Assembly: GCA_017935905.1 (NCBI GenBank)
Contig: JAGBGO010000030.1
Location: 1 to 34,376, forward strand
From: Clostridia bacterium
GTDB taxonomy: Bacteria > Bacillota > Clostridia > UBA1212 > UBA1255
Length of the DNA stretch: 34,376 nucleotides
Direction: 5' to 3'
Positions 5,221 through 27,902 of the stretch are shown in pieces (positions within the stretch are counted from its first letter, which is position 1; the number at the start of each line of letters is the position of its first letter). The position numbers were made by a program, and so were the translations under genes. The notes under the pieces were generated by a model. That model searched no databases. It was not told the DNA's origin and was given only the letters and a program-made list of their open reading frames with translations.

Positions 5221-5257
5221 AATTTTGGGAAATATATTCACAAAATTCGGGAAATAT
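5221..5257. repeat. 15-bp imperfect direct repeat upstream of the nuclease-like gene
   Basis: AATTTTGGGAAATAT (5221-5235) and AAATTCGGGAAATAT (5243-5257) are direct repeats with a 22-bp start-to-start distance, about two helical turns. The position just upstream of a possible -10 for the rightward gene suggests an operator, with the adjacent XRE protein the obvious candidate ligand; this is inference. Confidence 0.6.
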
Positions 5258-5297
5258 GTTTGAATGGTATAGCGTAGAAGAAAGGGGGGCTTTTACC

Positions 5298-6077
5298 ATG
5301 TATTACCAAAAAATGAAAGAAGAAAGAAATCGATTACGGCAAGCCATTCGTCATTGTGATGAATTGTTGCAAACGCTTCCGGAGGGAACGCTTTATTGCG
5401 TACAAGATGGAAATCGGGAGAAATGGTATCACAAAATTGATGGTAAGGAGAAATATATTCCGAAAGCGAATCAATTACAAGCGGCGCGGCTTGCGTACAA
5501 ACGCTATTTAATTGCACAAAAGAAAGACTTAAAGCGGGAACTGTGTGCTGTAGATGCCTTTTTGGAAAAATATCCGCAGGAATATGAAGCGCAAACGTTC
5601 ATGGAGGACCATCGATACCAACCGCTGATTCAAGTGTTTCTGTCTCCACGTAACGAGGTGCTCAAAAGGTGGGCGGAAGAACCTTATGAGCAAAATCCAT
5701 ATAAACCGGAAGGGAAGATCCATCGCATTTATCCGGGGCTTTCCGTACGATCTAAAGCAGAAGCGATGATTGCTTCTCGATTACATAGTTATCAGATTCC
5801 GTTTCGCTATGAGTGTATCATGTATTTAGGCGGGAAAGCGGTTTATCCGGATTTCACGATTCGCCATCCGGAAACAGGCGAACTTTACTACTGGGAGCAT
5901 TTAGGGCTTTTAGAGGATCCGGCATACAGTCAGAGGGCCGGGGAGAAAATCACACAATATGCAAACGCCGGATTCTACGTAAATCGAAATCTGATTCTTA
6001 CCGATGAAACGCGACGTCATCCTTTAACCTTGGATGAAATCGACAAGGTGATTGGGGACTATTTTTTGTGTGCGTAG
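5298..6077 (+). CDS. Candidate PD-(D/E)XK nuclease-like protein of unknown function
   Basis: A 259-residue protein starting at the ATG at 5298, chosen because AAAGGGGGG lies 8-17 nt upstream; the in-frame ATG at 5256 has no such site and lies in the repeat region. Residues 1-95 are charged and helical (probable coiled coil). The C-terminal half has the order expected of a PD-(D/E)XK-type fold: E155 in VRSKAEAMIA, P184-D185 in VYPDFTI, E200-H201 in YYWEHLG, then K217. I remember similar uncharacterised proteins from clostridial genomes (RSK-E ... PDF ... WEH pattern), but know of no assigned function. There is no helicase, methylase or transposase partner nearby. It lies between an XRE gene and polC, with a structured intergenic region upstream. 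Nuclease activity is inferred only from the residue pattern. Confidence 0.85.
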   Translation: MYYQKMKEERNRLRQAIRHCDELLQTLPEGTLYCVQDGNREKWYHKIDGKEKYIPKANQLQAARLAYKRYLIAQKKDLKRELCAVDAFLEKYPQEYEAQTFMEDHRYQPLIQVFLSPRNEVLKRWAEEPYEQNPYKPEGKIHRIYPGLSVRSKAEAMIASRLHSYQIPFRYECIMYLGGKAVYPDFTIRHPETGELYYWEHLGLLEDPAYSQRAGEKITQYANAGFYVNRNLILTDETRRHPLTLDEIDKVIGDYFLCA

Positions 6078-6163: not shown

Positions 6164-9100
6164 ATGAGCAGGCTGAAAATTCTGAAAGTAGAAGCGTGCA
6201 AAGAAACAAAGAAATTTAAGATTTACACCGAAAGTGATACGGTGCTGAATGACTCTGAAATTGAACGTTACAAGCAGAAGTTTCGGCAAACATTAGGCTA
6301 TCAGGATATAGAACTGTTTGTGGAAATGCCGGAGCCGCCTGCCACGCAAGACCTTCCGCCTGAAGAAATCGTACAGGTTGGATTTACCGTTGATGAATAC
6401 GAGAAACAGCAGCAGGAGAATATTAAACTTGCTGCCAGAAATATGTCGAAATCCGGCGAGGGATACGCTTCCGGAGAGGGTCATTACGTTCGGAAACAGG
6501 AAGGCTGGTACAATGGTAAAGGCGACGGCAAATCGTCTAAACGCAAACGCATTGCGCCGGCGGAAGGTGAAGAACCCAGGAAAGATGCGGAAGGGAACGT
6601 AATCTTATTGGGTACAGATTTCTTCGATCCGATTACGCCGATGAAAGATATTACGATGGACTCCGGTTTTGTGGCAGTTCGAGGAAGAATTTTCCATTTT
6701 GAAACGAAACAAATTCCCAGTGGGTCCTATATTGCCACTGTTCAGCTGACAGATGAAACGAACTCTCTGTCTGCAAAGTTTTTCTTCCAGGAAGAGGACT
6801 TGGATTATGTGAATGGTTTCTTTAAGAAGAATACGTATGTACGCATTTACGGAGAGGCAATTATTGATAAATATACAAGAGAGCTTACTTTGACGGCCAA
6901 GAGTATTATTGTAGCCAAGCAGAAGAAACGCATGGACAATGCCCCCAGGAAAAGGGTTGAATTGCATTTACATACATTAATGAGTTCTGTAGACGGTATC
7001 ACAAGACCGGGACCGCTTATGGAAACCTTGATCCGCTGGGGACATCAGGCAGTGGCGGTTACCGACCATGGCGGTGTACAAGGTTATTCGGAATTAACCA
7101 AAATTTATAGAGAAAAATATGCTAAAGAAATTGCACCGGACTTCAAAATTTTATACGGATGCGAATGTTATCTGTGCGACCGTACGCCGGATATGACCCA
7201 TGATGAAGCAAAGAAATTGCCTACCTATCACTGTATTTTACTGGTACAGAATACGGTGGGATTAAAGAATTTATACAAACTGATTTCTAAATCCAATTTG
7301 GACTATTACCACAAGCGTCCCAGAATTCCCCGCTTTGAACTTCAAGCGCACCGAGATGGTTTGATTGTAGGAAGTGCATGCTCCGAAGGCGAATTGTACG
7401 AGGCATTGCTGAATCAAGAACCGGAGGAGAAACTCCTGCAAATGGCAGATTTCTACGATTATTTGGAAATTCAGCCTGCAGAGAATAATATGTATTTAGT
7501 ACGAAACGGTATGGTTTCCGGTTTGGATGAAATTGAGCGTCATAATTTGCATATTGTATCTTTGGCGGATCAGTTAGGTAAACCCACGGTGGCTACGTGC
7601 GACGTACACTTTTTGAATCCGGAGGACGAAATTTACCGTGCGGTTTTGCAAGCAGGGCAGGGATACGATGATTTTGCCAGCCAGCCGCCCCTTTATTTGC
7701 GTACTACGGAAGAAATGTTGGAAGAATTTAAATATTTAGGCGATCGGGCGGAGGAAATCGTTATTGATAACACCATTAAGATTGCCGATATGATTGAGAA
7801 AATCAAACCGGTTCCCGACGGAAACTACCCGCCCAGTATTCCCGGCTCCGATGAGACTTTACGAAACAGCGCCTATGAGAAGGCTTACAGTATTTACGGC
7901 AATCCCTTGCCGGACGTGGTGGAGAAACGGTTGAAAAGAGAACTGGATTCTATTATCAACAACGGTTACTCTATCATGTATATTACTGCGAAAGAATTGG
8001 TGGCAGAATCTGCCAGAAACGGCTACCAGGTAGGTTCCCGTGGATCCGTAGGATCTTCTCTTGCTGCCTATATGGCGGGCATTACGGAAGTAAACTCTCT
8101 TCCGGCCCACTACCGCTGTCCCGACTGTGGCTATTATGAATTCCATGAGAATGAAGGCTATGACTGCGGTTTTGACATGGAACCGAAAGATTGTCCCACC
8201 TGCGGCAAACCCTTGGTGCGGGACGGTTATGATATTCCTTTCGAAACTTTCCTTGGCTTTAAGGGCGATAAAGTTCCGGATATTGACTTAAACTTTGCTT
8301 CTGACGACCAACCCAGTGCACACCGTTATATGGAGGTGCTTTTCGGCAAGGGCAACGTGTTCCGCGCCGGTACCATTTCCGGACTTGCTGATAAGAATGC
8401 AAGAGGCTACGTACTGAAGTATTTAGAGCGTACGGGGAAGGTGGCCAGCGATGCGGAAATTTCCCGTCTTGCCAGCGGCTTTGAAGGGGTTAAGAAAACT
8501 ACCGGTCAGCATCCGGGCGGTATCATCGTTATTCCACGGGACAAAGAAATCTATGATTTTACCCCCATCCAGCACCCTGCAGAGAAGATGGACTCGGATA
8601 TCATTACGACTCATTTCGAGTTTAAGTACTTGCATGATACGCTGCTAAAGTTGGATATTCTGGGTCACGAAGGTCCGGCAATGTTGAAACTGTTAGAGGA
8701 ATTTACCGGAATTGACAGCTTAAACGTGGATATTAACGATAGCCATATGTTGTCGATCTTCAACTCACCGGACGCCTTGAATATGGATATGGACAAGGTG
8801 AAAATCAGCGTACAATTGGGCACGCTGGGCATTCCGGAAATGGGCACCAACTTTGTAATGAAGATGCTGACGGAAACAAGACCGACCAAATTTTCGGAGT
8901 TGGTTCGTATTGCAGGTCTGTCTCACGGAACGGACGTATGGACGGGGAATGCGCAAACTTTGATTCAAGACGGCGTTTGTACGTTGTCGGAAGCAATTTG
9001 CTGCCGTGACGATATTATGCTTTATCTGATCAATATGGGAATGGACAAGAAAATGTCTTTCGATATTATGGAAAAGGTGAGAAAGGGTAAAGGCTTGACC

Positions 9101-9787
9101 GCCGAATGGGAAGCGGAGATGCGCGCCCACAAGGTGCCTGAGTGGTATATTGAATCCTGTAATAAAATCAAATATATGTTCCCAAAAGCCCACGCCGTTG
9201 CTTACGTTATTTTGTCCCTTCGTATTGCATGGTTTAAGGTGTATCAACCGGCCGCATATTACGCCGCTCGTTTTTCGCTGAAAATTGATGATTTTGATGC
9301 GGCAAATATGATTCACGGTTTAGATAAGGCATACGGGCAGATGTCTCTTATGAACTTGATCGGTAAGAACGCTGTTCAAGTAGACGTAGGTGATGATGAG
9401 GAAGAAGGCGCCTCGAAAGGCGGCGGTGAGTTATCTGCTAAAGAAAAAAGTCAGGCGGCGATCTACTATTTATTGGTCGAATTGTATGCCCGTGGACTTT
9501 CCTTCTTGCCTATGGATATTTATGAATCGGATGCAAAGTATTTTAGGCCTACGCCGGAAGGCATTCGACCGCCCATTGCTTCTCTTCAAGGTGTAGGTGA
9601 ATCGGCGGCGCTGAGTATTGCAAAAGAACGGGATCGCAGGAAAGCAATAGGAGAACGTTTTATCTCTGTTGAAGACTTCCAAATGAGTACGGGTGTAAAT
9701 AAAGCGGTAGTAGAGGCTTTGCGGGCAGAAGGCTGTTTTGGCGGACTTCCGGAAAGCAATCAATTGTCGCTGTTTGATACCCTTTGA
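6164..9787 (+). CDS. polC: DNA polymerase III PolC-type alpha subunit without the 3'-5' exonuclease insert
   Basis: A 1,207-residue Gram-positive-type replicase. Order: N-terminal domain with a Gly/Lys/Glu-rich linker (about 1-165), OB fold (about 170-260), PHP domain (H268-L-H270-T, then VAVTDHGG), polymerase domain with a zinc ribbon (C652-P-D-C ... C-P-T-C) and catalytic Asp residues (P705-D706-I-D708-L-N-F and K829-L-D831-ILGH), helix-hairpin-helix region, and a C-terminal clamp-binding QLSLF. B. subtilis PolC is about 1,437 residues and has a DnaQ-like exonuclease inside the PHP domain. Here the PHP text runs from YGCECYLCD through a short linker straight to TYHCILLVQNTVGLKNLYKL, with no DxETTG, so the insert is absent rather than mutated. 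The ATG at 6164 starts the recognisable N-terminus; a GGAAGGG purine run lies about 15 nt upstream. Confidence 0.97.
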   Translation: MSRLKILKVEACKETKKFKIYTESDTVLNDSEIERYKQKFRQTLGYQDIELFVEMPEPPATQDLPPEEIVQVGFTVDEYEKQQQENIKLAARNMSKSGEGYASGEGHYVRKQEGWYNGKGDGKSSKRKRIAPAEGEEPRKDAEGNVILLGTDFFDPITPMKDITMDSGFVAVRGRIFHFETKQIPSGSYIATVQLTDETNSLSAKFFFQEEDLDYVNGFFKKNTYVRIYGEAIIDKYTRELTLTAKSIIVAKQKKRMDNAPRKRVELHLHTLMSSVDGITRPGPLMETLIRWGHQAVAVTDHGGVQGYSELTKIYREKYAKEIAPDFKILYGCECYLCDRTPDMTHDEAKKLPTYHCILLVQNTVGLKNLYKLISKSNLDYYHKRPRIPRFELQAHRDGLIVGSACSEGELYEALLNQEPEEKLLQMADFYDYLEIQPAENNMYLVRNGMVSGLDEIERHNLHIVSLADQLGKPTVATCDVHFLNPEDEIYRAVLQAGQGYDDFASQPPLYLRTTEEMLEEFKYLGDRAEEIVIDNTIKIADMIEKIKPVPDGNYPPSIPGSDETLRNSAYEKAYSIYGNPLPDVVEKRLKRELDSIINNGYSIMYITAKELVAESARNGYQVGSRGSVGSSLAAYMAGITEVNSLPAHYRCPDCGYYEFHENEGYDCGFDMEPKDCPTCGKPLVRDGYDIPFETFLGFKGDKVPDIDLNFASDDQPSAHRYMEVLFGKGNVFRAGTISGLADKNARGYVLKYLERTGKVASDAEISRLASGFEGVKKTTGQHPGGIIVIPRDKEIYDFTPIQHPAEKMDSDIITTHFEFKYLHDTLLKLDILGHEGPAMLKLLEEFTGIDSLNVDINDSHMLSIFNSPDALNMDMDKVKISVQLGTLGIPEMGTNFVMKMLTETRPTKFSELVRIAGLSHGTDVWTGNAQTLIQDGVCTLSEAICCRDDIMLYLINMGMDKKMSFDIMEKVRKGKGLTAEWEAEMRAHKVPEWYIESCNKIKYMFPKAHAVAYVILSLRIAWFKVYQPAAYYAARFSLKIDDFDAANMIHGLDKAYGQMSLMNLIGKNAVQVDVGDDEEEGASKGGGELSAKEKSQAAIYYLLVELYARGLSFLPMDIYESDAKYFRPTPEGIRPPIASLQGVGESAALSIAKERDRRKAIGERFISVEDFQMSTGVNKAVVEALRAEGCFGGLPESNQLSLFDTL

Positions 9788-26836: not shown

Positions 26837-26852
26837 GTGGGGGATGTTTCGC

Positions 26853-27902
26853 ATGGAAGATGAACGTTTACTTTCCGTTACCCAATGCCCGGAAGATTTG
26901 GAGGAAGCCAGCCTTCGTCCCAGACGGTTTGAAGAGTATATCGGACAGGAGAAAGCACGGAACAATCTTTCCGTGTTTATTGAGGCTGCCAAGCAGCGGA
27001 AAGAACCCTTAGACCACGTATTGCTCTACGGACCTCCCGGACTGGGCAAGACCACACTCGCCGGCATTATTGCTTCCGAAATGGGTGTGAATCTTCGCGT
27101 GACTACCGGCCCTGCCATTGAGAAAGCCGGCGATCTTGCAGGCCTTCTTACCAACTTAAATGAATTTGATGTACTGTTTATTGATGAAATCCACCGTTTG
27201 AATCGCTCCGTAGAGGAAATTTTATATCCGGCCATGGAAGATTTTGCCTTTGACATTGTTATCGGCAAAGGACCTGCGGCCCGTTCTTTGCGTATGGATT
27301 TACCGAAATTCACTTTGGTGGGTGCAACCACCCGGGCAGGTTTGTTAACGGCGCCTTTGCGGGATCGCTTCGGTGTCATCAGCCGTTTGGAAATGTATAG
27401 CATTTCCGAATTAACCCGTATTGTAAAGCGTAGTGCCGGTATTTTGAAAGTGGAAATCGAAGAAGACGGTGCGAAAGAAATTGCCATGCGGGCAAGAGGG
27501 ACCCCGCGTATTGCCAACCGTTTATTAAAACGGGTTCGGGACTTCGCTCAGATTCGTGCTGACGGCATTGTTACCGGCGCCGTAGCGAAAGCCAGTTTGG
27601 ACTTACTGGAAGTGGACCAATTGGGCTTAGACAACGTAGACCGAAACGTACTGAACACCATGATTTATAAGTTTAGCGGCGGTCCTGTGGGATTGGATAC
27701 GTTGGCGGCGGCTACGGGAGAGGATGCCACCACCATTGAGGACGTATACGAGCCGTATTTACTCCAGTTGGGCTTTATTAGTAAGACACCACGAGGCCGT
27801 ATGGTGATGCCCCTTGCGTATCAGCATTTAGGCATTCCTTTTGATCCTTGCAAGTGTCCCCAACAATTGAGTTTATTTGATGCAGGCGGTGAGACAACGT
27901 GA
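26853..27902 (+). CDS. ruvB: Holliday junction branch migration ATPase RuvB
   Basis: A 349-residue AAA+ motor. [11 protein letters not shown] starts the domain, Walker A is GPPGLGKTT, Walker [10 protein letters not shown], sensor 1 VGATTRAG, arginine finger in LRDRFG, and the C-terminal winged helix has [10 protein letters not shown] and [10 protein letters not shown] chose ATG 26853, with GGGGG about 9 nt upstream; ATG 26844 is the alternative and overlaps that purine run. The tail ends [10 protein letters not shown], a perfect QLSLF beta-clamp-binding motif like that at the end of PolC in this window. The stop overlaps the GTG of ruvC by 4 nt. Confidence 0.97.

Follow-up and report, generated by a model that had tools for sequence, protein, structure and literature searches.

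The window, by which we mean the whole stretch of 34,376 nucleotides analysed here, carries on its forward strand a polC gene (6164..9787) encoding a PolC-type DNA polymerase III alpha subunit of 1,207 aa in which the DEDDh exonuclease insert is absent. The open reading frame has no internal stops, and its start at 6164 is backed by the homologue L005, in which MSRLKI begins at the same position and which matches the window PolC over its full length (91% identity in the best segment). The nearest named records are gut MAGs labelled Clostridia bacterium or Oscillospiraceae bacterium. The protein gives full-length matches above the curated cut-offs of PolC models, with 1358 bits against NCBIfam NF001688 (cut-off 873) and 1239 bits against TIGR01405 (cut-off 1043), and a Pfam search of the full protein finds OB, PHP, Pol3 alpha, fingers and HhH_6 domains, and no exonuclease domain.

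All domains follow one another on the plus strand. The N-terminal region (residues 1-150, 6164..6613), which has a weak DNA_pol3_a_NI match, is modelled by AlphaFold2 as a small alpha/beta domain (residues ~4-54) followed by a disordered linker, with pLDDT values of 71-82 for residues 1-50 and below 50 across most of residues 56-127. The OB-fold domain (residues 170-250, 6671..6913), recognised by Pfam as tRNA_anti-codon and by Foldseek, where the top matches are PolC structures and the next are other OB folds, lies N-terminal to the PHP domain, as expected of a PolC. The PHP domain comes in two parts: the first (6959..7165) holds the metal ligands H268, H270, D277, H302 and E334, the second (7229..7843) holds H356, C406, D480 and H482, and between them a loop of 21 residues (335-355, 7166..7228) occupies the site of the exonuclease of other PolCs. 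The polymerase core of palm, thumb and fingers (7856..9334) contains the catalytic motif PDIDLNF (residues 705-711), which is invariant in all PolC sequences covering that stretch, and the C-terminal part (9494..9784) consists, again as in other PolCs, of a tandem HhH motif and the clamp-binding pentapeptide QLSLF.

Directly upstream of polC lies a gene for a 273-aa protein without known family (5256-6077, plus strand), which shows 58% identity to its counterparts in the sister species and in L005, and of which the segment YPDFTI...YWEHLG resembles PD-(D/E)XK nucleases by eye. It has no Pfam match above cut-off and was found beside polC in the genus only, and on these two grounds we rejected it as a replacement nuclease. 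Elsewhere in the window, RuvB (26844-27902, plus strand) carries at its C-terminus a perfect QLSLF clamp-binding pentapeptide identical to that of PolC. It looks like a short motif that could tether RuvB to the sliding clamp. Within the order, RuvB of f3, f6 and most of family f1 has a tail whose length varies greatly and which shows (x)LSLFD, TLFD or LxIFD close to the terminus; the tail is missing in f2, f4, f5 and genus g3.

The missing module is a DEDDh exonuclease of about 190 residues. At the junction, YGCECYLCDRTPDMTHDEAKKLPTYHCILL (nt ~7154-7243), E334 (nt 7163-7165) and H356 (nt 7229-7231), the fifth and sixth PHP ligands, are separated by 21 residues, in agreement with the linker of roughly 20 residues described in the initial annotation. 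This corresponds to an E-to-H spacing of 22, against 205-218 (204-217 residues between) in 21 exonuclease-bearing clostridial PolCs, while the loops of exonuclease-less PolCs measure 13-32 residues (spacing 14-33). The motif D[IL]ETTG is present in all 21 of the exonuclease-bearing clostridial PolCs fetched and was found in none of the exonuclease-less clostridial PolC sequences compared, the window PolC included, which bears out the earlier statement that no Exo motif of the DxETTG type exists in this protein. In phmmer alignments, residues 155-1205 align in one stretch to the G. kaustophilus PolC structure 3f2b, a construct from which the exonuclease was removed for crystallisation, whereas the alignment to the full-length E. 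faecium PolC 9qpc falls into two stretches that flank the exonuclease of the latter. At the equivalent PHP site, the loop of DnaE1 is 20-22 residues long across the order of the window (20 in the window's own genome), and published lengths (PMC5636811) are 29 residues for M. tuberculosis DnaE1, 18 for Taq and 9 for E. coli. At the loop site, the PHP domain of the window PolC is thus DnaE-like in form.

A fragment or a frameshift as the cause is ruled out by the open frame and the PolC alignment, and the absence is thus a clean one, as first proposed, with Pfam and the uninterrupted match to 3f2b in accord. Nor did AlphaFold2 and Foldseek uncover a divergent DEDD fold inside the protein, which had been named as a possible refutation: the N-terminal 262 residues model as the alpha/beta domain, the disordered linker and the OB fold, with PolC and other OB folds as top Foldseek matches, and for the PHP segment, in a low-confidence model (pLDDT 54), the significant matches were PolC structures only. 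The source genome is a draft of 84 contigs, and an artefact of assembly or binning, or a recent deletion in a single strain, might be suspected. We give this reading practically no chance: 28 further sequences of the order share the junction, as do MAGs recovered independently by other studies, the reading frame is open, and within the family the linker is conserved in sequence. A deletion confined to this one contig, the other refutation foreseen, is already refuted by these relatives.

How common such a PolC might be had been left open by the initial annotation; it proves to be the state of the whole order and of several other families of the class. Each of the 31 genomes of the order has a PolC, and the insert is missing from all 29 sequences that cover the junction, the window's included (28 judged from the alignment and one, G001, from how far its only match reaches; L029 and L040, which are contig-end fragments, were left out of the count). 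Because every PolC of the order that covers the junction shows it, the absence is far beyond chance; in this order it is an ancient, fixed trait. In a sample of 392 genomes of the class, the insert is also missing in families f7, f11, f16, f26, f51, f54 and f76 and in one member of f30, while many other families have PolCs of ~1,400-1,490 aa with the exonuclease present. Family f30 holds both states, L077 with the exonuclease and L087 without it. A genome of family f51 (G373) has two different exonuclease-less PolC genes, L085 and L086, or is a mixed bin (3% contamination).

In a PolC tree of 77 sequences, from which the exonuclease columns were excluded, the exonuclease label switches seven times, and at least four of these switches are forced by strongly supported branches. 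A constraint grouping all exonuclease-less PolCs was rejected (p-AU 7.4e-12), which rules out a single ancestral loss in Clostridia; both runs were quick IQ-TREE searches with one Bacilli outgroup, the G. kaustophilus PolC, taken from a printed pairwise alignment and ending at chain residue 902. The exonuclease-less state is polyphyletic in Clostridia and reflects several independent changes of state, although single cases may be due to transfer between lineages. Given the outgroup and the identical insertion point in all exonuclease-bearing PolCs, the direction of change was probably loss rather than repeated gain. With one origin rejected, the exonuclease cassette is therefore repeatedly dispensable.

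The window PolC is not new in kind. Exonuclease-less PolCs were published in 2013 (PMC3919608). In that survey they are paired with DnaE1, make up 6% of PolCs, with Clostridia and Negativicutes as the source of nearly all, and account for 16% of the PolCs in PolC+DnaE1 systems; the identity of the proofreader in such bacteria is posed there as an open question. The canonical PolCs of B. subtilis, E. faecium (9qpc) and G. kaustophilus (3f2b) share with the window PolC the OB, PHP, core and HhH domains and the clamp motif but carry the DEDDh exonuclease within PHP; as this hallmark is missing here, and as a DnaE-type alpha subunit occurs in the same genome, we file the protein under the exonuclease-less subtype rather than under canonical PolC. 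The known members in Clostridia and Negativicutes have the same full architecture minus the insert and the same DnaE1 partner, and nothing differs in kind. The window PolC is best explained as a genuine and complete replicase of the clostridial PolC+DnaE1 type. Our data add that the trait is fixed throughout the order, that it is polyphyletic, and that most exonuclease-less genomes have no DEDDh protein match at all, none of which we found stated in the consulted passages of the published surveys.

The initial annotation had called for a check of the PHP metal ligands and for a scan for a second alpha subunit. All nine ligands (HHDHEHCDH) are intact in the window PolC, and a DnaE-type alpha subunit (DnaE1) with intact PHP ligands and the clamp motif QMSLF is encoded on contig C7 of the same genome. 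Both polymerases thus display the nine-ligand pattern HHDHEH[C/H]DH of PHP proofreading polymerases, and the set is complete in every exonuclease-less PolC fully covering the site and in all 19 DnaE1 proteins examined from the order. We are aware of no report of biochemical activity for any clostridial PolC PHP domain. The ligands of the trinuclear zinc site are shared with M. tuberculosis DnaE1, a DnaE1 rather than a PolC, whose ligand 5-6 loop is of similar order and whose PHP exonuclease activity has been demonstrated (PMC5636811). In the same alignment G. kaustophilus PolC reads HHDHEHCNH, with one Asn at the ligand that is Asp in the window PolC, and this protein, with one PHP ligand mutated, is described as devoid of PHP exonuclease activity (PMC5636811). 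The E. coli PHP domain, which has lost five of the nine ligands and has the 9-residue loop, is inactive as an exonuclease (PMC5636811). Ligand conservation shows the site to be important, yet does not by itself demonstrate a takeover after the loss of the exonuclease, because exonuclease-bearing clostridial PolCs covering the site are equally complete.

A scan for a stand-alone DnaQ-type exonuclease, also proposed at the outset, succeeded in part: one is present in the window's own genome, and it is not conserved. This protein, L001 (374 aa; L001:1492-2616 on contig C83), carries the motifs DIE and HRSLED, which fit an active DEDDh site; among curated models, PolC exonuclease regions come closest (48 bits), its best phage-family match is phrog_192, 'DNA polymerase exonuclease subunit', and its C-terminal part of ~190 aa has no known family. 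Contig C83 has a GC content of 0.49, like the window, and an ordinary chromosomal context; as to contamination, the HslO encoded on it has matches at 55-61% within the family but none in the sister species G020. Matches to the RNase_T family occur in 10 of the 31 genomes of the order and are lacking altogether in 21, counts to be read knowing that a gene may wrongly seem absent from a draft MAG, that large-batch genome searches are less sensitive and miss weak members, and that the 400-genome RNase_T search missed L001 itself, its negatives indicating a trend only. A repeat search at E <= 10, run in small batches, covered 15 exonuclease-less genomes (the window's, which has L001, not among them): 13 gave no DEDDh family match, including the closed single-contig genome G201, rated 100% complete, and the other two gave fragments only (E 0.05-0.4). 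Matches appeared as they should in the control genomes and in G208 and G332, both of which bear the exonuclease. A conserved stand-alone DEDDh exonuclease in the order is not supported. In genus g11 (f5 genomes, L055-L060), the sole DEDDh protein found starts with its exonuclease domain and continues into a long basic tail of low complexity, in which K, R and A abound and which possibly binds nucleic acid.

Who, then, proofreads? An epsilon-like DEDDh exonuclease such as L001, acting in trans, is an answer to which its motifs, its likeness to PolC exonuclease regions and its chromosomal setting lend some credit. However, no convincing homologue turned up in any other genome of the order (30 searched, the sister species included; best E 0.003), so that L001 cannot be the general proofreader of the lineage; no clamp-type motif was seen in its sequence and most relatives have no DEDDh protein match, and we consider proofreading in trans very improbable. 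Only a little less improbable is that PolC is wholly unproofread, with accuracy resting on base selection and mismatch repair, and with folding or a pyrophosphatase activity as the reason why the PHP domain is kept. In E. coli this domain reportedly has a structural role and has been described as a pyrophosphatase without exonuclease activity, and MutS is present here: MutS-family matches occur in all 31 genomes of the order at E <= 0.001, and 26, the window's among them, exceed the curated MutS1 cut-off. The E. coli domain kept its structural role despite the loss of five ligands, however, whereas all nine are invariant here, and one would expect selection to act against a total loss of proofreading over the time span of an order. 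With MutS present and the trait ancient and fixed, the suggestion of no proofreading and a raised mutation rate finds no support, and a general mutator state is not supported.

A further possibility, raised by Timinskas and Venclovas for PolC+DnaE1 systems, is that DnaE1 does the bulk of high-fidelity synthesis; its own PHP domain would proofread, and a minor or specialised PolC could freely lose its exonuclease and keep its PHP domain for other reasons. The near confinement of exonuclease-less PolCs to such systems, noted in the same survey (PMC3919608), fits this, as do the intact PHP ligands and QMSLF of the window genome's DnaE1. PolC, however, was never lost in the order, its PDIDLNF is invariant, and most families of the order keep a canonical clamp tail on it, which together argue for an important replicative role of PolC; we regard a merely ancillary PolC as rather unlikely, though less so than the two preceding readings.

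Our preferred reading, which we hold to be somewhat better than an even bet, is a PolC replicase that has lost its cassette and is proofread by the PHP domain of PolC, of DnaE1, or of both. An ancestor of the lineage would have lost the DEDDh cassette inserted in PHP, and the domain would have closed up through a short loop with all nine metal ligands retained. A mispaired primer end would then shift from the palm to a zinc PHP exonuclease, as it does in M. tuberculosis DnaE1; the site could be the older one within PolC itself, that of its partner DnaE1, or both, and mismatch repair through MutS would act behind it. The loop length, like that of DnaE1 of the order, Taq and M. tuberculosis and unlike that of the inactive E. 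coli PHP, supports this, and the stand-alone RNase_T-type exonucleases of some exonuclease-less genomes count against it. The PHP sites would, we infer, be working exonucleases with a proofreading function; of the three outcomes first offered, a separate exonuclease, the PHP active site or no proofreading, the PHP active site is the best supported, all nine ligands being intact in both polymerases. A stronger version, in which several clostridial lineages have repeatedly discarded the DEDDh proofreader and rely on PHP proofreading alone, with the PolC PHP an active zinc exonuclease and no DEDDh enzyme in the cell, we hold to be possible but somewhat short of even.

The loss of the inserted exonuclease in several lineages implies that it is dispensable, which bears on the modelling of PolC-directed drugs and of mutation rates in gut Clostridia. 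Species that combine an exonuclease-less PolC with the lack of any DEDDh gene have this confounder removed, and offer a natural test of the PolC PHP domain as a proofreader.
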